Of a DNA stretch of 50,177 nucleotides, positions 4,655-33,226 are shown in pieces (the stretch's first letter is position 1; each line of letters starts with the position of its first letter). Origin of the DNA: Candidatus Symbiothrix sp. (lineage in GTDB: Bacteria > Bacteroidota > Bacteroidia > Bacteroidales > Azobacteroidaceae); the NCBI GenBank assembly GCA_031290435.1, contig JAITNQ010000089.1, forward strand, positions 1-50,177, read 5' to 3'. Made by a program: the position numbers and the translations under genes. Below the pieces are notes generated by a model that was given only the letters and a program-made list of their open reading frames with translations, searched no databases and was not told the DNA's origin.

Positions 4655-5035
4655 TTATTTTCCAATAAATGCCCGGTATCCGTCTGCATCCAACAGTTTG
4701 TCTAATTCCGAAGCTTTGGATACGGAAATTTTGACTATCCAACCTTGCCCATAAGCATCGGAATTTGCCAATTCGGGCTGGTCTTCTAAGTCAGGATTCA
4801 CTTCCAACACTTCTCCACTTATGGGCATCAACAGGTCAGAAACGGTTTTTACCGCTTCAATCGAACCGAAGGCTTCACCTTGTCTGATGGTTTCACCTTC
4901 GCTTGTTACGTCCACAAAAACGATTTCACCCAATTCACTCTGGGCGTAATCCGTGATTCCGACATAAGCTTCGTTTCCTTCCACACGAATCCATTCGTGG
5001 TCGTTTGTGTACTTTAATTCTTTAGGAAAATTCAT
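4655..5035 (-). CDS. gcvH: Glycine cleavage system H protein
   Basis: The H protein shuttles the aminomethyl group on a lipoyl arm between the P, T and L proteins of the glycine cleavage system. The 126-residue product has the full H-protein pattern, including [12 protein letters not shown] near the N-terminus and the lipoylation site [11 protein letters not shown] with the acceptor Lys63. Length is standard. gcvP and gcvT are not nearby. It sits 49 bp downstream of rpoN on the same strand and is fused head to tail with purE (stop and start adjacent), so the expression unit is probably rpoN-gcvH-purE-ispG. Confidence 0.95.
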
Positions 5036-5084
5036 ACAATTTACTCTTTAATTAATTATTATTGGTTTATATAATGCGCATAGC

Positions 5085-6548
5085 TCAAATTTCCTTTCTC
5101 AACCGGGCAACCGGCACATTCAATTGTTCCCTGTATTTCGAAATGGTTCTCCGGGCTACCTCGTATCCTTTGTTTTTCAGCTCCTTCATCAGCAAATCGT
5201 CGGTCAAAGGTTTGGATTTGTCTTCATCGTCGATACACTTTTTCAGGATGGCTTTTATTTCACGGGTGGAGATTTCCTCCCCTTCATCGTTTGTCATTGA
5301 TTCCGAAAAAAAGTATTTCAAGGAATAAACGCCAAAATTAGTCTGGACATATTTACTGTTGCTCACCCTCGAAACCGTAGAGATATCGTATCCGCATAAT
5401 TCGGATACATCTTTCAGTATCATGGGTTTCAAATCGGACTCTTCTCCGGAAAAGAAGAAATCATGTTGAATTTCGATAATGGCCGACATGGTTTTTCGCA
5501 AAGTGATACTTCTTTGTTTGATCGCATCAATAAACCATTTGGCTGAATCTAATTTCTGCTTGACAAAGTTGACGGCTTCTTTTTGTCCGGAACTTTGCTT
5601 CTTTTTCGGATTAGAATATTCGTTGAACATTTCTCCATATTCCCGGTTTACTCTTAATTCGGGAATATTTTGTTCTTGCATACTGAAAACCAATTCGCCA
5701 TTGACAACATCCACGAAAAAATCGGGGGTGATTTGCGCCATTTTGGTTTCCATATTGCTTTCCCATGCGTTTCCGGGGCGAGGATTCAGCAGGGTTATTT
5801 CTTTGATACTGTCTTTCAGTTCTTCCTCGTTCAAGTTTAAATTTTTAAGAATTTTCTCGTATTGCTTTTTAGAAACGGCATCGAAATAATTTTCCAAGAT
5901 TTGAATAGCATTGTTCCGCGCATGTGTTTTTTCTTTCCTTTTCAACTGCACCAGCAAGCATTGTTGCAAATCGGTAGCGCCTATTCCCGGAGGGTCCATT
6001 TCCCAGATAAGGCTCAGAACCTCTCGGATACGGATAATCGAAACTTCTATCCCATATTGAAAGGCCAGATCATCAGAAATGGCATCCAATTCCCGGCGGA
6101 TATACCCGTCTTCATCAATATTCCCGATAAGATACTCTCCAATGGTACGGAATTGCTCATCCGGCAGATTTTTCAAATGAAACTGTTCCAACAGGTATTC
6201 TTGAAAAGATTCGTTTTCGGAATAGGGAATATCTTCTCTCACATTTTTTTCGGAATAGTAGTTCTGCGGAAGATTGTAATCGGGAATATCTTCTTCGGTG
6301 CGATAGTCGCCCAAAGACAAGTCTTCTTGTGAAATATCTCCTTCATCCGATTCGAAATCCTCGGCAATACCATCCTCTCCCGTTTCGGAAGGCGATTCAG
6401 TCATCTCTTCCAAAGCAGGATTCTCTTCTAACTCCTGATTTATTCTCTCTTCTATTTCAATACCCGTAAGTTCCAACAGTTTAACTTGTTGAATTTGCAA
6501 AGGAGAAAGTTTTTGCTGCTGTTTTTGCGTTAATTGTTGCCTAATCAT
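5085..6548 (-). CDS. rpoN: RNA polymerase sigma-54 factor
   Basis: Sigma-54 directs RNA polymerase to -24/-12 promoters and needs an AAA+ activator. The glutamine- and leucine-rich region I (QLTQKQQQKLSPLQIQQVKL) is at the N-terminus, followed by an acidic region II (about residues 50-110), the core-binding region, and the HTH region. The invariant RpoN box appears as ARRTISKYREQLNVP close to the C-terminus. The length, 487 residues, is usual for the phylum. A perfect -7 box with a -33 TTTG lies 33-64 bp upstream of the ATG. No enhancer-binding protein is encoded in the window, so its regulon cannot be inferred here. Confidence 0.95.
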   Translation of the reverse strand: MIRQQLTQKQQQKLSPLQIQQVKLLELTGIEIEERINQELEENPALEEMTESPSETGEDGIAEDFESDEGDISQEDLSLGDYRTEEDIPDYNLPQNYYSEKNVREDIPYSENESFQEYLLEQFHLKNLPDEQFRTIGEYLIGNIDEDGYIRRELDAISDDLAFQYGIEVSIIRIREVLSLIWEMDPPGIGATDLQQCLLVQLKRKEKTHARNNAIQILENYFDAVSKKQYEKILKNLNLNEEELKDSIKEITLLNPRPGNAWESNMETKMAQITPDFFVDVVNGELVFSMQEQNIPELRVNREYGEMFNEYSNPKKKQSSGQKEAVNFVKQKLDSAKWFIDAIKQRSITLRKTMSAIIEIQHDFFFSGEESDLKPMILKDVSELCGYDISTVSRVSNSKYVQTNFGVYSLKYFFSESMTNDEGEEISTREIKAILKKCIDDEDKSKPLTDDLLMKELKNKGYEVARRTISKYREQLNVPVARLRKEI

Positions 6549-23039: not shown

Positions 23040-24914
23040 TTACCTTCCTAATAAAACCAACAAAACATTTATATCGTTTGGAGAAACCCCCGGTATCCGA
23101 GATGCTTGCGCAATCGTTTCCGGATTGATTTTTGTCAACTTCTGTCTGGCCTCTGTCGATAAGGATTGAATGGTAGTATAATCAAATTTACTTTGAATCC
23201 GAATATTCTCCAAACGATTGATTTTAGCTGCAATTATTTTTTCCCGTGCAATATAGCCTTCGTATTTCATTAAAATCTCGGCTGCTTCAATTATTTCTTC
23301 TCTCCGATTAGACAAACTGTCTAATTGTTCCTGAAAAGCCGGAATCAGTGCAGCTATATTTTCAATCGTCAATTGTGGCCGAAGAATTAAATCAGCCAGC
23401 TTCACATTGTGCCGAAGAGGAGTCGTCCCAAAGGATGCCAAAGCCGAATTAACAGATGCTGCTTTCACAGAATAATTTTTGGCAAAAGAAACAATCTTTT
23501 CAATTGCACTTTTCTTTTGCTGCAACAATTCATATCGCCGGGAATCTGCCAAACCTAAATTGTATGATTTTTCCGTTAAACGCATATCTGCATCATCCTG
23601 ACGCAACAAGATACGATATTCTGCACGCGAAGTAAACATCCGGTAAGGTTCATCAACGCCTTTTGTTACCAAGTCATCTATCAATACGCCGATATAAGCT
23701 TCGTTTCGCCCTAAAACAAAGTCATTTCCGCCATGTACTTTATTATGCGCATTGATTCCGGCCATTAAACCTTGCGCACCTGCCTCTTCGTATCCGGTAG
23801 TCCCATTGATTTGTCCGGCAAAAAATAAATGCTGAATGCGCTTGGTTTCAAGCGTTGGATGTAACTGCGTCGGCGGGAAAAAATCATATTCAATGGCATA
23901 GCCCGGACGATAAAGCCGGACATCTCGCAAAGCCGGAATTTTCCGCAAGGCTTCCAACTGAACCATGAACGGAAGTGAAGATGAAAATCCATTCAGATAA
24001 TATTCTTGCGTATGCTCGCCTTCCGGCTCTAAAAATAATTGATGCTGCGTTTTGTCGGCAAAAGTTACAATTTTTGTCTCAATACTGGGGCAATACCTCG
24101 GCCCGATACTTTTAATCTGACCATTGTACAAAGGAGAATCAGCCAAACTGTTTTGCAAGACTTCATGCACAAATTCATTGGTGTATAAAGTCCGACAACT
24201 CACTTGAGAAAGCGGACGAGGGGTAAAATCCAAATAAGAAAACTTGTGAAAATCATTCTCTCCTTTTTGTTCTTCCGTCAGAGAGAAATCTACACTTCGG
24301 CCATCAATACGCGGCGGCGTACCGGTTTTCATACGGCCGACTTCAAAACCATGGGCTATCAATTGTTCGGTCAGACCGAAAGAGGCTGGTTCGGAGATAC
24401 GACCACCCGAAATTTGAGTTTTACCAATATGCAAAAGTCCATTCAAAAATGTACCTGCGGTGAGAATTACCGCCCTTGCATGAAATTCAACATCCAAAGC
24501 AGTGATAAGTCCACAAACCGCTCCATCTTTTATAATTAACTGTTTTACAGTATCTTGCCAAATAGACAGATTGGGAATAGCATCCAATGCCTCTCGCCAG
24601 TAAAGAATAAATTTCGTCCTGTCGCTCTGTGCACGCGGACTCCACATAGCAGGGCCTTTGGAACGGTTCAACATCCGAAATTGAATAGCAGATCTATCGC
24701 TAACAATCCCCATCTGACCGCCTAAAGCATCAATTTCACGCACAATCTGACCCTTTGCAATTCCGCCTACAGCCGGATTGCAACTCATCTGCGCAATTTT
24801 GTTCATATCCATTGTTATCAGCAGGGTTTTGGAACCGAGATTTGCCGCCGCTGCCGCTGCATCACAACCGGCATGACCTGCTCCAACAACGATTACATCG
24901 TATTCAAACTTCAT
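23040..24914 (-). CDS. mnmG: tRNA uridine-5-carboxymethylaminomethyl modification enzyme MnmG
   Basis: MnmG is the FAD-dependent partner of MnmE that installs the cmnm5 group on wobble uridine 34 of tRNAs. The 624-residue protein has the FAD-binding motif DVIVVGAGHAGCDAAAAAA at the N-terminus, the family signature MSCNPAVGGIAKGQIVREID, GQINGTTGYEEAGAQGLMAG, and the C-terminal domain with RIPGVSPNDINVLLVLLGR at the very end. The length is standard. Its start overlaps the HEPN gene by 11 bases, so it is co-translated with the upstream toxin-antitoxin-like pair. Confidence 0.97.
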   Translation of the reverse strand: MKFEYDVIVVGAGHAGCDAAAAAANLGSKTLLITMDMNKIAQMSCNPAVGGIAKGQIVREIDALGGQMGIVSDRSAIQFRMLNRSKGPAMWSPRAQSDRTKFILYWREALDAIPNLSIWQDTVKQLIIKDGAVCGLITALDVEFHARAVILTAGTFLNGLLHIGKTQISGGRISEPASFGLTEQLIAHGFEVGRMKTGTPPRIDGRSVDFSLTEEQKGENDFHKFSYLDFTPRPLSQVSCRTLYTNEFVHEVLQNSLADSPLYNGQIKSIGPRYCPSIETKIVTFADKTQHQLFLEPEGEHTQEYYLNGFSSSLPFMVQLEALRKIPALRDVRLYRPGYAIEYDFFPPTQLHPTLETKRIQHLFFAGQINGTTGYEEAGAQGLMAGINAHNKVHGGNDFVLGRNEAYIGVLIDDLVTKGVDEPYRMFTSRAEYRILLRQDDADMRLTEKSYNLGLADSRRYELLQQKKSAIEKIVSFAKNYSVKAASVNSALASFGTTPLRHNVKLADLILRPQLTIENIAALIPAFQEQLDSLSNRREEIIEAAEILMKYEGYIAREKIIAAKINRLENIRIQSKFDYTTIQSLSTEARQKLTKINPETIAQASRIPGVSPNDINVLLVLLGR

Positions 24915-25329
24915 GATCTACGTAAGGAGATGATTCTGTAATGAGTTTTTCGAGTGCATCAATAAATTTATCTGCAGGTTCCACAAAAGACTGCACATCT
25001 GCTTCCTCCATAACCATCCAATCGCTATAATCGCCTGTCTGGCGAAGTTCAAAAAGCTGACTGTAGAATTTTCCTAATTCTTTGCAAATAATCCCTTTGG
25101 AAACAAAATGCAAACTTAATAATCCAATGATTCCTGCGTGAGTATGCGCCGAGTATCCATGCTTCATAAGTAATGCGCTTGCTACATAGTAACAAGCATA
25201 ATACAAGCGATTCGCTGCCGTATTCCAATATCCAAGCGCAATAGTTCCTTTCGCTTCTACCAATGTGTCCTTTGCTTTCTGTAAGCGATGCAGTACAATC
25301 GCTGTTTTTTCTTCTTCACTTAATTTCAT
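24904..25329 (-). CDS. HEPN domain protein, probable toxin of an MNT/HEPN pair
   Basis: The 141-residue all-helical protein carries the HEPN pattern: RLQKAKDTLVEAKGTI in helix 1, then NTAANRLYYACYYVASALL, HTHAGIIGLL and ELRQTGDYSDW. HEPN proteins paired with a small nucleotidyltransferase are often RNases neutralised by the partner. The canonical Rx4-6H catalytic motif is not obvious in this copy, so an inactive or non-nuclease role is possible. The start overlaps the MNT gene by four bases (ATGA) and its end overlaps mnmG by 11. Confidence 0.82.
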   Translation of the reverse strand: MKLSEEEKTAIVLHRLQKAKDTLVEAKGTIALGYWNTAANRLYYACYYVASALLMKHGYSAHTHAGIIGLLSLHFVSKGIICKELGKFYSQLFELRQTGDYSDWMVMEEADVQSFVEPADKFIDALEKLITESSPYVDHEV

Positions 25330-25637
25330 ACTATTTCAATTCCATCATGTTCAACATTTTTGTAAAACAGAGACGGCTTTTGCTTTTCCCAATCTGATTG
25401 AGTGAAAACTTTTGCACTAAAGTATTTACCAAACTTCCAACCCAATTCCGTAAAAGGGTAAGCATAGTTGCCATAATCATCAAATGTACGCTTAGACTTT
25501 TTTAACAAAATAAGCAAGTCCCAATCCGACTCTTCGGTAGCATCGCCACGAGCCTGAGAACCAAACAGGATTAATTTACCATCCGGTAAAATCTCCTGTT
25601 TCAATTGTTTTATTTCTTCCAATATTTGCTGATTCAT
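25326..25637 (-). CDS. Minimal nucleotidyltransferase (MNT), probable antitoxin
   Basis: The 103-residue protein has the nucleotidyltransferase motif GSQARGDATEESDWDLLILL, with the GS and the paired aspartates (DWD) that bind metal and NTP; a third acidic position is less clear. In known MntA-HepT systems the MNT adenylylates the HEPN toxin. The four-base overlap with the downstream HEPN gene strongly supports a functional pair. It lies six bases after ybeY. Confidence 0.85.
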   Translation of the reverse strand: MNQQILEEIKQLKQEILPDGKLILFGSQARGDATEESDWDLLILLKKSKRTFDDYGNYAYPFTELGWKFGKYFSAKVFTQSDWEKQKPSLFYKNVEHDGIEIV

Positions 25638-28243: not shown

Positions 28244-28274
28244 TTGCAGAAAAACAATATTTGACATATCTTTG
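28244..28274 (+). promoter_or_regulatory. Promoter of the RiPP cluster
   Basis: TTG at 28244-28246, a 20-bp spacer and TATCTTTG at 28267-28274 match the Bacteroidota -33/-7 promoter. The -7 box is inside an inverted repeat TTGACA...TGTCAA (28261-28278) that could serve as an operator. A leader of roughly 85 nt would precede the precursor ATG. Confidence 0.65.
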
Positions 28275-28364
28275 TCAACAGTATGGAAAGTGACATTTCT
28301 TACAGACAAGGAAAAAGCCGAAAATTCTATAAATTGAGTAGGCAATAAATAACAATTACAATGT

Positions 28365-28550
28365 ATGGAAAATGTTAAAGAAAAATTGTCCACTCTCCAA
28401 AAGATCGACAATGCAGGAATGAAAACTATCAAGGGTGGCAAAACGCTCCACACGTTAACAGTGACCCCTCAAAAAGTTGTACTTAGAGCTGCAGGAGCCT
28501 TTGATTCTCAGGATGGAGATGACGGAGATGATGGTATTAAAAACGATTAA
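28365..28550 (+). CDS. RiPP precursor peptide, grasp-with-spasm (graspetide-type)
   Basis: The 61-residue peptide has a leader (LSTLQKIDNAGMKTIKGG) ending in a double glycine at residues 24-25, the classic cleavage site for GG-leader peptidases and the form common to Bacteroidales natural-product precursors. The 36-residue core has Thr at 27, 30, 32 and 34, Ser48, Lys at 26, 37 and 59, and a run of Asp at 47, 50, 52, 53, 55, 56 and 61 (DGDDGDDG). Such hydroxyl or amine donors plus carboxylate acceptors are what ATP-grasp enzymes join as omega-esters or omega-amides. The ATP-grasp gene follows directly after a hairpin. The exact ring pattern cannot be read from sequence. Confidence 0.85.
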   Translation: MENVKEKLSTLQKIDNAGMKTIKGGKTLHTLTVTPQKVVLRAAGAFDSQDGDDGDDGIKND

Positions 28551-28558
28551 ATCTCTGT

Positions 28559-28591
28559 AAAGAGAAGTGCTGTATAACAGCACTTCTCTTT
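28559..28591 (+). terminator. Attenuator/terminator hairpin between precursor and ATP-grasp gene
   Basis: A perfect 14-bp stem (AAAGAGAAGTGCTG core, with AGAGAAGTGCTG and CAGCACTTCTCT as the main arms) closes the 5-nt loop TATAA and is followed by TTTAT, a weak U-tract. A short competing helix, TCTCT at 28552-28556 with AGAGA at 28561-28565, uses part of the left arm. This arrangement would let most transcripts stop after the precursor and a minority read through to the enzymes. Confidence 0.75.
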
Positions 28592-28613
28592 TATGATCTA
28601 AAGTGATCTGCTT

Positions 28614-29588
28614 ATGATTTTAATTCTTTCTAATCACGGTGATTATTCTACAGACATTGTCATTGACTGGTTAGAGTATCTTGAAGCTAAGTATGTAAGG
28701 ATTAATTCTTTTGATTTAATGGATTATCCTTGGGATATTGATCTATCATGTTCGCAAATAAAAATAAAGGGACAGATTATAGATAATAGTAAGATAGGGG
28801 CTGTTTGGTTTCGCAAATTTGGTTTTTTCAGAAAGAGCAAACAAGCAAATGATATAAAGATGACATTAGATCCATATGCACAATCTTATTTTTCAACAGA
28901 ATTTTCCCGAGTTATGGAAGTCTTTGAATCCTTTTTCGCCCCAGCATTTTGGTTGACAAATCCCCAAAAAATTACACTAAATAAGTTTCTTGTACTGAAA
29001 AAGGCAGTTGATATTGGACTAAATGTTCCAAAAACTTATGTAACCAACAACAAGAATACTCTACGATTTCTTCAAGCTAATGGAATAGAACTTATTTCTA
29101 AATCTATATATGATCCATTATTTTTAAAAGTGGATAGTGAACGATACAGTATGTATACAGCACTTTTACAAGAAACTGACATGCAAAATATACCAGAAAC
29201 ATTTCTTCCATCTATGGTACAAGAAAAAATTTCCAAACGCTTTGAGATAAGGACATTTTATCTATGCGGTAAATGCTATTCTATGGCAATAATGTCCCAA
29301 ATGGATACTAAGACTTCCCTGGATTTCAGAAAGTACAATACTGAAAATCCAAATAGATTTTTGCCATATAAGTTACCTTTGCAAATTGAAGAAAGTGTGA
29401 ATCATTTAATGGAAGAGTTAGATTTAAACACAGGTTCACTTGATTTTATTCTTGATGAAAATGGCCAATATATATTTTTGGAAGTTAATCCTACTGGTCA
29501 ATTTGGAATGGTTGACTTCTCATGTAATTATGGACTACATGAAAAAGTGGCAAAAAAATTACTATTTGAAGATTTAAAAAGAATATGA
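28614..29588 (+). CDS. gwsG: ATP-grasp peptide maturase of grasp-with-spasm system (GwsG-type)
   Basis: The 324-residue protein matches the GwsG family pattern that I recall: a preATP-grasp N-terminus (MILILSNHGDYSTDIVIDWL), AVWFRKFGF, MVQEKISKRFEIRTFYL, YSMAIMSQMDTKTSLDFRKYN, and the metal- and ATP-binding block LNTGSLDFILDENG followed by FLEVNPTGQFGMV. ATP-grasp ligases of this type activate Asp or Glu carboxylates of the precursor and link them to Thr, Ser or Lys side chains. Its stop overlaps the next gene by four bases (ATGA). Confidence 0.88.
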   Translation: MILILSNHGDYSTDIVIDWLEYLEAKYVRINSFDLMDYPWDIDLSCSQIKIKGQIIDNSKIGAVWFRKFGFFRKSKQANDIKMTLDPYAQSYFSTEFSRVMEVFESFFAPAFWLTNPQKITLNKFLVLKKAVDIGLNVPKTYVTNNKNTLRFLQANGIELISKSIYDPLFLKVDSERYSMYTALLQETDMQNIPETFLPSMVQEKISKRFEIRTFYLCGKCYSMAIMSQMDTKTSLDFRKYNTENPNRFLPYKLPLQIEESVNHLMEELDLNTGSLDFILDENGQYIFLEVNPTGQFGMVDFSCNYGLHEKVAKKLLFEDLKRI

Positions 29589-29815
29589 AAGCCATTGAAT
29601 GCGCTAAAATATCAGACATAAAAGGGTCATTACCGCTTAATGCTTTGTTAGCAGAAAAGCTATCCACAGATCAGGATTATGCATTTTTGAAAGTGAACTT
29701 GTTTCCGCAAAAAAGTATATTCTACCAAAATGATGATTTTACATCATTCCTTTATCATAAAGAAATCGTCACAACAGTAGAAAACACTGAAAATATTGCA
29801 AAGACAAAACTATAG
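29585..29815 (+). CDS. Unassigned 76-aa protein inside the RiPP cluster
   Basis: I do not recognise this 76-residue product. It starts in an ATGA overlap with gwsG and ends seven bases before the gwsS ATG, so it is translated with the maturases and is likely real. It has no signal peptide, double glycine or cysteine cluster; it contains one Cys (residue 6) and segments such as DIKGSLPLNALLAEKL and YAFLKVNLFPQKSIF. The C-terminal part, HKEIVTTVENTENIAKTKL, is rich in Thr and Glu, so a second substrate is conceivable, as is a leader-binding or accessory protein. Confidence 0.7.
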   Translation: MKAIECAKISDIKGSLPLNALLAEKLSTDQDYAFLKVNLFPQKSIFYQNDDFTSFLYHKEIVTTVENTENIAKTKL

Positions 29816-29822
29816 TATTTAT

Positions 29823-30824
29823 ATGAAAAAAATGATATTGTCTCCATGTTGTAGAATTGTAAAAGGATATTGCAATTCATGTATATATGATTTACAGAAA
29901 AATAATATTTATAAATTTTCCAATACTCTTCTTTCTATATTTTCTTCAAATGGGGAAAAAGACGAAATAATTTTTGCAAACTCTCCCACAGCAGATGATA
30001 ACAATCAGAGTAAATTCATTGAAGACATGAAAGCAGAAGATTTATGTTTTGAAATAGATGATAGTAATGATTTTCAATCTATAAATACCAAAATTTCATA
30101 TACTCCTCAGTTTTGTGCAAATTGTATTATTGACAGAGACGCAAAATCTTCGTATTCGCTAAAACGATGTGAAGAACTTATAGCTCCTTTATTATGTGAA
30201 GCTATATGTTTTAGGTATTTTGATCCACTTTCACTTGATACATTATTATCTAATTTATCTTTTTTTAAAGAATCAACTTGCCGAAGTATTGAAATTAACT
30301 TTACTCCTAAGCAAGTTGTAAGTATTGATGACTGTTTGAAACTTAAAGAACAGAATGAGAGAATATTTAAAATTATTCTATTTTCACAGGCGAATAATCA
30401 AATAATAACCATCGGAACAGATTTAACAATACAATATTCTAAAGAAAATTTGATTGATGAATTTCAATGTGGATTTGTATCTGATTTTTACATGAACGCA
30501 CAAACTCAATTTTATATAGAATCCAAGAATCATAATAATTGTTTATACAAGAAAATTGCAATAGACAGAAAAGGAAAGATAAAAAATTGCCCTGCAATGA
30601 ATGAGGAATTTGGCACTATTGACAAAGAATGTGAGGACTTAAGGTCAATTGTTCAAACTCATTCCTTTCAGAAATATTGGTCAATATCAAAAGATCAAAT
30701 TGAAGTCTGTTGTGATTGTGAATATCGTTATGCTTGTCATGATTGCAGATGCTTTCTGAAAGATAAAAGTAATATAAAATCTAAACCACTAAAATGTAAT
30801 TATAATCCCTATGAAGAATCATAA
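29823..30824 (+). CDS. gwsS: SPASM-domain peptide maturase of grasp-with-spasm system (GwsS-type)
   Basis: The N-terminus, MKKMILSPCCRIVKGYCNSC followed by IYDLQ, and the cysteine-rich C-terminus match the SPASM protein that accompanies GwsG. I see no CxxxCxxC radical-SAM motif. The C-terminal SPASM-like region has Cys in KNCPAMNEEFG, VCCDCEYRYACHDCRC and LKCNYNP (residues about 255-330), which should bind Fe-S clusters. A role in precursor recognition or electron handling is inference. A TTG at 29796 would extend the frame by nine codons, but it overlaps the upstream gene, while the ATG at 29823 is cleanly placed after the previous stop. Confidence 0.85.
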   Translation: MKKMILSPCCRIVKGYCNSCIYDLQKNNIYKFSNTLLSIFSSNGEKDEIIFANSPTADDNNQSKFIEDMKAEDLCFEIDDSNDFQSINTKISYTPQFCANCIIDRDAKSSYSLKRCEELIAPLLCEAICFRYFDPLSLDTLLSNLSFFKESTCRSIEINFTPKQVVSIDDCLKLKEQNERIFKIILFSQANNQIITIGTDLTIQYSKENLIDEFQCGFVSDFYMNAQTQFYIESKNHNNCLYKKIAIDRKGKIKNCPAMNEEFGTIDKECEDLRSIVQTHSFQKYWSISKDQIEVCCDCEYRYACHDCRCFLKDKSNIKSKPLKCNYNPYEES

Positions 30825-30901: not shown

Positions 30902-33226
30902 ATGGATCGGTCCTATAATATTTTCATCGCTATTATCCTATTCGCCACGGTATCTTTCTCCGGTACGGCACAAACCTTCACAGGAAGAGTTTATTGTAAA
31001 GAACTTCCGGTTGAATTTCTTAATGTTTTACTTTTTAGTTCGGATTCAACCATGCTTACCGGCGCTACAACTGACTCTTTAGGGAGATATTCCATTGAAT
31101 ATTCAAACATTGGAAGTAATACAAAACAAAATCCAAGTTATCTGCAATTTTCAAGTTTACAATACAAAAGCAAAATAGTAAGTATTGACTCCATTGAGCA
31201 TACTGATGCGCTTATCGAAGTGGTTGAAAATATAAAAGAATTGGATGCTATTGTTGTTGTCGGAAAACAGCCAATATATAAAATGAGCAATGGAACATTT
31301 ATAACAAATGTTTCTTCTTCCCCTGCTTTAAAGAATAGTGGTTCTATAGATAATCTCCTCAACAAAATTCCTTTTGTTTATGGGAAGAATGGATCCTACG
31401 AGGTTTTGGGTGCAGGTAATGCTGAAATCTATCTTAATAAACAAAAAGTACAAGATCCAAGCATTCTACAATCTTTGCGCTCACAAGATATAAAAACTGT
31501 AGAAATTCTTAAAAATCCAGGGGCAAAATACGCATCTGACGTAAATGCAGTTATTATAATAAATACACAAAAAAATGATAGGAAAAGCGCATTAAGTATT
31601 ACCCAACTTTTACAACAACAGAATAAGTTGAGTAGCTACACCGGAATAAATTTAAATCACGCCAATGGCCCTACCGATTTAAATTTAAATATAGCCTATA
31701 GCAATACCAACATGGAAACACAGTCAAATGACAAAATTCAGGTATTTGATAAACTAAATCCATCTGAAACAAATGATGATGCAAATATAAATTATCATTC
31801 CGACTATATTAGAATGGGACTCGGAATGAACTCAGAATTAGGAAAAAAGGCAAATATTGGATTTACAACGAATCTCAATATGGGACTAATGAATAATGAA
31901 GTTCTATCCAATGGATTGAAACATTTTCAGGGGAATAGTGCAACATTCGATAGTCCGACGAATGCAAATTCAATAGTTAAACCATTAAAATCCACAACAA
32001 ATCTATATTATAGCGGAAAGATTAAAACCACCTCTATCAATATTACAGACAATTTTTTACTGGGCAGAAACTATAATACATTTGAATATGCTGAAAAATT
32101 AAACAATGTCTCTGTGGCAACAGATGGAAAGCAAAAATTCTTAATGAACTCATTGCTGATTTCATTTAATTCGCCATGTACAGAAGGTGGAAATTTGGAA
32201 TACGGTATTGAACTTACGCATAGTATCAATAATAATATATTTAGCTATTCGCAAGAGCAGATAGAGACCGAAATGGAAAATTCGGAGATAAATCATACAC
32301 AAACTTTATATGCCGGTTATTTGGCTTACAGATACAATGTTAAGTCTTTTTCCATCTATGGCGGTTTGAGATATACGTATGAAATACCTGCGTATAAAGA
32401 AAACAATATTTCGATAAAGAAGGGTCAATATAGTCCATCTGTTTTTTCTCCAAGTCTTTCTATTAGTTATGACAAAGAGAATATTAACGCTGAATTATCG
32501 TATAGACGTACCCTATCCAAACCTTCCTACTCTTCGTTAAATAATTTCATTGTTTATGAGTCAAGATATACATATCAACAAGGAAATCCTCTATTAGACA
32601 ATCAAATCAAAGACATGTATTCTTTCAATGGAATGCACAAAAATTTTAAATTAAGTTTTACCTATAATGCTTACAAAAATTCTATTACTTCCATGTTGTT
32701 TCCTTTTAAAATTGAAGATGGAATTGTTTTGAGGAGACTTACGAACATTCCTAAATATTCAGATGCAAGCCTTGGTCTCAATTGGGGAACAACATACAAT
32801 CGTTATTCCCCAACAATTCAAATAGCAGGAGGTAAGCAATGGCTAAAATATTCGCATGAAACTTTTAATAGCCCTTTTATTTTGATAAGTTCGGATAATT
32901 ATTTTAAGTTAGAGAAGCAATGGGGTCTTAATTTATATTGTGCTTATACGTCATCAAAGTATGAACTATATGCTCGTATATCCCATCAGTGGGAGTATAG
33001 TATTTCATTGACAAAACAGAAAAATAACTTCAATATAAACTTCAATATAAATAATCTGTTTTTACCGAGATTTCTTTCTGAGGAAAAGAAAATGAACAAT
33101 ATATCCGCATTTGAAAGAGTTACGCAAGATTTTTCAGGCATTAGTTTAACTGTTTCGTATCGTCTCAATTCCATTAAACCTCGCTATAATAACAGAAAAG
33201 CGAGCGACGAGTTGCAGCGTTTTTGA
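30902..33226 (+). CDS. Outer-membrane beta-barrel protein (OMP_b-brl_3/TonB-receptor-like) next to RiPP genes
   Basis: The 774-residue protein has a signal peptide (FIAIILFATVSFSGTAQ), a CarboxypepD_reg-like domain (about residues 25-100), a plug-like region (LDAIVVVGKQPIYKMSNGTF, then NLLNKIPFVYGKNG and GNAEIYLNKQKVQDPSI) and a long beta-barrel rich in alternating aromatic strands (about residues 210-770). The architecture matches the outer-membrane beta-barrel family, a relative of TonB-dependent receptors. No TonB box is obvious. It follows gwsS by 77 bp without a visible promoter, so it is probably co-transcribed; export or uptake of the peptide product is a possibility. Confidence 0.82.
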   Translation: MDRSYNIFIAIILFATVSFSGTAQTFTGRVYCKELPVEFLNVLLFSSDSTMLTGATTDSLGRYSIEYSNIGSNTKQNPSYLQFSSLQYKSKIVSIDSIEHTDALIEVVENIKELDAIVVVGKQPIYKMSNGTFITNVSSSPALKNSGSIDNLLNKIPFVYGKNGSYEVLGAGNAEIYLNKQKVQDPSILQSLRSQDIKTVEILKNPGAKYASDVNAVIIINTQKNDRKSALSITQLLQQQNKLSSYTGINLNHANGPTDLNLNIAYSNTNMETQSNDKIQVFDKLNPSETNDDANINYHSDYIRMGLGMNSELGKKANIGFTTNLNMGLMNNEVLSNGLKHFQGNSATFDSPTNANSIVKPLKSTTNLYYSGKIKTTSINITDNFLLGRNYNTFEYAEKLNNVSVATDGKQKFLMNSLLISFNSPCTEGGNLEYGIELTHSINNNIFSYSQEQIETEMENSEINHTQTLYAGYLAYRYNVKSFSIYGGLRYTYEIPAYKENNISIKKGQYSPSVFSPSLSISYDKENINAELSYRRTLSKPSYSSLNNFIVYESRYTYQQGNPLLDNQIKDMYSFNGMHKNFKLSFTYNAYKNSITSMLFPFKIEDGIVLRRLTNIPKYSDASLGLNWGTTYNRYSPTIQIAGGKQWLKYSHETFNSPFILISSDNYFKLEKQWGLNLYCAYTSSKYELYARISHQWEYSISLTKQKNNFNINFNINNLFLPRFLSEEKKMNNISAFERVTQDFSGISLTVSYRLNSIKPRYNNRKASDELQRF

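Follow-up and report, generated by a model that had tools for sequence, protein, structure and literature searches.

The stretch examined here (the window) is one whole contig, JAITNQ010000089.1, 50,177 nucleotides long, from the Candidatus Symbiothrix sp. assembly GCA_031290435.1, a genome of 3.2 Mb that is 87% complete. On its + strand lies a co-directional series comprising a precursor gene (gwsA), a hairpin, a gene for an ATP-grasp synthetase (gwsG), a small-protein gene and a gene for a SPASM-domain protein (gwsS). Judged by its sequence, this is a cluster of the grasp-with-spasm graspetide kind, which has already been described. The first-pass annotation, which filed it under this kind of ribosomally synthesised and post-translationally modified peptide (RiPP), is backed by curated models, by gene order and by a homologous precursor family. 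We consider it likely that GwsG forms Thr-Asp esters in such a cluster and that GwsS is its leader-binding partner. The locus comprises:

28244..28274, + strand: promoter-like site of Bacteroidetes type (TTG, 20 bases, TATCTTTG), by pattern match
28365..28550, + strand: gwsA open reading frame (ORF), 61 aa, from the window ORFs and the precursor profile
28365..28439, + strand: gwsA leader, residues 1-25, ending in KGG, with GG invariant in the eight aligned precursors
28440..28550, + strand: gwsA core, residues 26-61 and stop codon, TxxTxTVTP ... DGDDGDDGIKND, by alignment of the eight
28559..28591, + strand: hairpin of 15 bp with a 3-nt loop and a U-rich 3′ side, between precursor and enzyme genes, by folding
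28614..29588, + strand: gwsG, ATP-grasp graspetide synthetase, 324 aa, by TIGR04192
29585..29815, + strand: LPL-type small protein, 76 aa, with an SLPLNALLAE motif, overlapping the end of gwsG, by family alignment
29823..30824, + strand: gwsS, putative pseudo-radical-SAM protein with a SPASM domain, 333 aa, by TIGR04193
30811..30918, + strand: ORF of 35 aa overlapping the gwsS stop, read from the window sequence
30902..33226, + strand: OMP_b-brl_3 outer-membrane barrel, probably the final gene of the cluster, by Pfam and its L117 homologue

As first annotated, GwsA is a 61-residue peptide with a double-glycine leader (GG at 24-25), Thr at 27, 30, 32 and 34, and Asp at 47, 50, 52, 53, 55, 56 and 61; it matches no Pfam or NCBIfam model at E <= 10. 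Relatives' loci were fetched from GTDB genomes by GwsS (the best 80 of 567 places encoding a relative). Small GG-leader ORFs 5′ of gwsG were read in the fetched loci, and related precursors were selected by eye. The window-type core is present in seven precursors from six other loci. Precursors whose core reads TxxTxT...DDGDDG[IV]xND stand 5′ of gwsG in Porphyromonadaceae bacterium COT-184 OH4590 (L117) and in Sphingobacterium; Sphingobacterium sp. JB170 (L118) and a Bacteroidetes metagenome-assembled genome (MAG; L119) have near-identical precursors, Sphingobacterium detergens (L136) has two, and two Bacteroidales MAGs (L164 and L120) have looser versions of the motif. Across the eight aligned precursors, GG, T27, T30, T32, G54, D56 and D61 are invariant, and D53 and D55 are retained in seven. 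D52 is retained in four, T34 and D47 are common to the window and L117 only, and D50 is unique to the window. The claim of an unusual Asp-rich core is only partly right, since other genera share this core and conservation is limited to three of its four Thr and four of its seven Asp.

A profile built from the seven non-window precursors ranks gwsA first among the 718 window ORFs (45.4 bits, E 3.3e-13; next 7.4 bits), and 1000 shuffled GwsA cores reach at most 19.5 bits. Because its score outstrips both the other ORFs and the shuffled cores, the gwsA ORF is not a chance reading. When all eight precursors served as a wider query against 15606 ORFs, the next ORFs included those of L138 (31.9 bits, core end CDDGQDAFD), L097 (28.6 bits, DSGSDAQL) and L064/L169 (25.1 bits, DDGDDSDI). 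At L169 (4188-7008) and L064, from the same genus as the window, the precursor ends VDDGDDSDI. A precursor profile gave 40 matches besides the window in 395 genomes of the host class (best E 7.9e-4), none covering the full model; among them, at E 0.015 in genome G586, is the precursor of L097, which adjoins gwsG. The strings DDG, TxxTxT, Sphingobacterium and Porphyromon are absent from the main text of Makarova et al. 2022 (PMC8939145). On sequence grounds, the cluster is a sound, ordinary member of a described kind whose precursor family was not found in the literature searched; Haft and Basu 2011 or a 2021 graspetide genome-mining paper may cover part of it.

The two enzyme assignments of the first-pass annotation, a GwsG-type ATP-grasp and a GwsS-type SPASM protein, are borne out by curated models: GwsG scores 293.1 bits against TIGR04192 (cut-off 230) and GwsS 192 bits against TIGR04193 (cut-off 175). 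In an alignment of homologues, GwsG retains K163, D237-R239 (DFR), D277, E290 and N292; K163, D277, E290 and N292 are presumably the ATP/Mg catalytic positions. Membership of the ATP-grasp family is supported by a profile match to the microviridin/chryseoviridin ligases (AMdnB, CdnC, 5ig9, 5ig8), with which GwsG has the DFR residues in common. Membership of the microviridins themselves was rejected: the core, as had been noted at first pass, lacks the microviridin core motif TxKxPSD, and the leader lacks PFFARFL because it has no proline. PFFARFL is given as the microviridin leader motif in excerpts of PMC8939145.

In the Bacteroidales MAG of L120, whose precursor is related, gwsG (4716-5778) runs over two reading frames, through either a frameshift or an assembly error, and for that reason it was left out of the GwsG tree of 123 sequences. 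On this tree the window GwsG pairs with that of L117 (59% identity; Shimodaira-Hasegawa-like approximate likelihood ratio test, SH-aLRT, 100) and falls within a clade of nine (SH-aLRT 90) that also holds L118, L119, L136, L138, L140, L164 and L166. Three changes on the tree account for the core label, borne by six rows; shuffled labels average 5.9 changes, and none of 500 shuffles is as low. The cores of L138 and L140 read TSTVxPx(n)[DE]DGxDxxD. Carriage of a close relative on plasmids was rejected after 60 plasmid records matched GwsG, the best from Elizabethkingia at 36% identity and none close. Plasmids of Elizabethkingia and Hymenobacter (NZ_CP071549.1, NZ_CP016375.1, NZ_CP114769.1) carry an annotated gwsG, so grasp-with-spasm clusters may move. 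No viral relative was confirmed in IMG/VR scans, nor was any relative confirmed in an initial search of genome contigs with a single GwsG query.

The gwsS gene begins 234 bases past gwsG, its likely start being the ATG at 29823; the TTG at 29796 is a mechanical ORF start only. The first-pass annotation named the protein without remarking on its missing radical S-adenosylmethionine (SAM) motif. Indeed, CX3CX2C is missing from the window GwsS and in 131 of 131 distinct GwsS homologues; residues 98-115, where the motif would be expected, hold two Cys at most in any row and none at all in 106 of the 131. The SPASM cysteines are complete in the window: C216, C240, C256 and C308 (auxiliary site AuxI) and C296, C299, C305 and C325 (AuxII), a split that we take from anSME. 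They persist across homologues, though the AuxI-assigned set comes and goes as a unit: 21 of 131 homologues lack it, and one retains a single Cys of it. At the N-terminus there are extra cysteines (CC at 9-10, C17 and C20), of which C10 is conserved in 120 of 131 homologues, whereas C17 occurs in 2 of 54 and C20 in 1 of 54. Pfam gives no match for the window GwsS itself, and TIGR04085 scores 19 bits, below its cut-off of 27. By VIA-align of the predicted structure, the modelled fold, N-terminal part included, resembles radical SAM-SPASM maturases such as TigE and CteB. Maturases of this type carry an N-terminal RiPP recognition element (RRE); GwsS is like these and other radical SAM-SPASM RiPP maturases in predicted fold and SPASM cysteines, but lacks CX3CX2C. 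TIGR04150, an NCBIfam model already named pseudo-rSAM, matches 20 of 70 GwsS homologues, whereas the window GwsS has no match at E <= 0.1. No paper on pseudo-rSAM proteins was found in the literature searched.

Radical SAM tailoring, formerly the default reading of GwsS, was demoted because the motif is missing throughout. A tailoring enzyme might nonetheless work through SPASM-cluster redox or an unusual SAM site, adding a second modification besides the rings. Both auxiliary Cys sets of the window are complete, C10 is joined by a C125 conserved in 106 of 131 homologues, many true radical SAM/SPASM NCBIfam models match homologues (TIGR04545, for example, matches 64 of 70), and Makarova et al., in excerpts of PMC8939145, name the family SPASM radical SAM enzymes. 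We nevertheless regard tailoring as unlikely, given the universal lack of CX3CX2C, the near absence of Cys at its expected site, the reach of the pseudo-rSAM model (though not to the window's protein) and the dispensability of AuxI that its losses imply. Sequence thus contradicts the published naming of this helper as a radical SAM enzyme.

With the motif missing from every homologue examined, the feature to seek becomes a partner that would enable ring closure, and not necessarily a second modification. Rosaritide offers a precedent: according to excerpts of PMC13097080, its synthetase MirB is inactive alone and needs a partner, MirC, whose N-domain is weakly RRE-like. GwsS adjoins GwsG in 76 of 80 loci (loci selected by GwsS), which together with the partner need of rosaritide makes GwsS a good candidate for the same role. 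By this analogy, we read GwsS as a pseudo-radical-SAM partner that would present the precursor to GwsG, as MirC does for MirB. The two differ in build, MirC having a SurA-like chaperone domain (PMC13097080) and GwsS instead a predicted SPASM fold.

In its arrangement, the cluster appears to fit both the "branch 5" of Makarova et al. 2022 and the "group 14" of Mitchell. As described in excerpts of PMC8939145, branch 5 has the same GwsG, the same LPL-type protein directly 5′ of the SPASM gene and the same GG-leader precursor upstream; its SPASM protein is taken there for a radical SAM enzyme, whereas the window GwsS lacks the motif. Group 14, likened here by its description in part of PMC13097080, matches the window in its co-occurrence with SPASM; no product of group 14 appears in that part.

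The small protein that had been placed between gwsG and gwsS was found at 29585-29815 and is LPL-type, with SLPLN at residues 15-19 and LYHKEI as a weak second motif. In 115 of 128 pairs of gwsG and gwsS this position is occupied by an ORF of 40-130 aa; of the 109 distinct intervening ORFs, 68 match an LP-type pattern, loosely defined, and 35 one of YKPIS type. Makarova et al. have already suggested that LPL proteins are auxiliary or contact the ligase (excerpts of PMC8939145).

Upstream of gwsG, the hairpin noted at first pass is present at 28559-28591 (-25.8 kcal/mol, z -6.0), and none of 200 shuffles folds equally well. A consensus terminator scan reported no site there despite the strength of this hairpin, which looks attenuator- or terminator-like. 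With the first 160 bases of each gap folded, and no shuffle comparison made, hairpins likewise form between precursor and gwsG in L117, L118, L119, L164, L120 and, for its second precursor gene, L136; folding is weak (-9.9 kcal/mol) behind the first precursor of L136. We infer that a partial terminator here would yield more precursor than enzyme. The promoter claimed upstream of gwsA fared less well. The site exists at 28244-28274, but its pattern, TTG-N20-TATCTTTG, which we take to be the Bacteroidetes promoter consensus, has seven occurrences on the window's + strand and is therefore weak evidence.

We propose that GwsA would be made with its GG leader, which GwsS, through an RRE-like N-terminal part, a degenerate radical-SAM barrel and a SPASM domain, probably binds while holding the core for GwsG; the LPL protein is perhaps an adaptor. 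GwsG would then use ATP to activate Asp side chains for ester formation with the Thr27, Thr30 and Thr32 hydroxyls, the acceptors most likely lying among Asp53, 55, 56 and 61. Ring formation is plausible by analogy with the GwsG family. Conservation of both the Thr segment and the Asp tail, with a spacer that ranges from 6 to 24 residues, leads us to picture a stapled hairpin, in which up to three macrolactones (-18 Da each) would tie the Thr strand to the Asp strand over a loop of variable length. Cleavage after GG and export of the product are probably the work of a C39 protein whose gene lies elsewhere in the genome.

Several results weigh against this explanation. By hand count, five of the eight precursors have a spacer of 6 residues from T32 to D53, L120 has 9, the window 20 and L117 24, and with such variable length a fixed ring topology is not certain. 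Within the clade of nine, L166 departs from the core motif. The other full cluster in the genus, in genome G004 (L063), is not the closest relative, its GwsG being 34% identical to the window's, and the scans made found no window-type core beside its gwsG. Foldseek alone gave no PDB match for the GwsS model at E <= 0.001, and a GwsS profile found no SPASM enzyme among PDB chains, so the fold claim depends on the model and VIA-align. The structure model of the LPL protein is poor (predicted template modelling score, pTM, 0.30), no C39 protein lies on the window contig, and no characterised product for the grasp-with-spasm group was found in the excerpts of PMC8939145 or PMC13097080. Further, extra acidic residues occur outside the tail in the cores of the window, of L117 and of the two L136 precursors, four out of eight. 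Those residues could serve as acceptors, and the tail is Gly-rich and nearly invariant beyond what ring acceptors require; it may thus be a metal-binding or recognition segment, with the acceptors elsewhere, or only a single ring may form. We doubt this, since in L118, L119, L164 and L120 all acidic core residues lie within the tail, and known graspetides use Asp/Glu located C-terminal to Thr. The DXDG calcium-binding motif, known from lipopeptide antibiotics, was sought in the tail by eye and is absent.

Downstream, the window and L117 both carry an OMP_b-brl_3 barrel 3′ of gwsS, and the two are homologous (E 3.4e-158); excerpts of PMC8939145 list this family as associated with branch 5. The 35-aa ORF sits where L117 has a gene for a 219-aa lipoprotein-like protein, and is a possible relic of a deleted gene. 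Compared with its counterparts in five other loci, the L117 protein matches none, and Pfam gives no match for it either. Such a possibly shrunken gene, together with the lack of a local C39 exporter and broken gwsG genes in kin, might mean that the cluster is decaying and yields little or no product. In L169, of the same genus, only gwsG residues 1-77 remain, in an ORF of about 85 aa beside an intact gwsS; the L120 gene is split between frames; and the TIGR04192 cut-off is exceeded in only 2 of 45 genomes of the host family, as it is in 18 of 393 sampled from the order and 29 of 395 from the class, all tallies including the window's own genome. Decay of the window's cluster is nevertheless very improbable, given that gwsA, gwsG, the LPL gene and gwsS are all open with their conserved residues kept, the barrel is intact and C39 proteins are present in trans. 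The host genome has seven C39 matches, five of them in frames of 582-754 aa, and a C39-like ORF occurs in 65 of 140 loci searched. Elsewhere in the window (24904-25637, - strand), adjoining genes for a HEPN-like protein (141 aa) and a minimal nucleotidyltransferase-like protein (103 aa) resemble, by eye, a toxin-antitoxin pair of MNT-HEPN type.

More tentatively, and at somewhat less than an even chance, we speculate that GwsS was once an RRE-radical SAM-SPASM maturase, has lost its SAM cluster family-wide and now serves as an iron-sulphur-stabilised, leader-binding activator of GwsG, that the LPL protein is a trans-acting leader mimic, and that TxxTxT...DDGDDGIxND marks a new three-ester topology. 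Grasp-with-spasm clusters are frequent in Bacteroidota, as the 29 of 395 sampled class genomes indicate, and the core, being small, recurrent and marked by three Thr that never vary and four Asp that are conserved, provides a clean test substrate. According to excerpts of PMC8939145, branch 5, with 190 loci, is larger than any other poorly characterised ATP-grasp group. If GwsS is indeed a maturase turned partner, this largest group would consist of partner-dependent graspetides.
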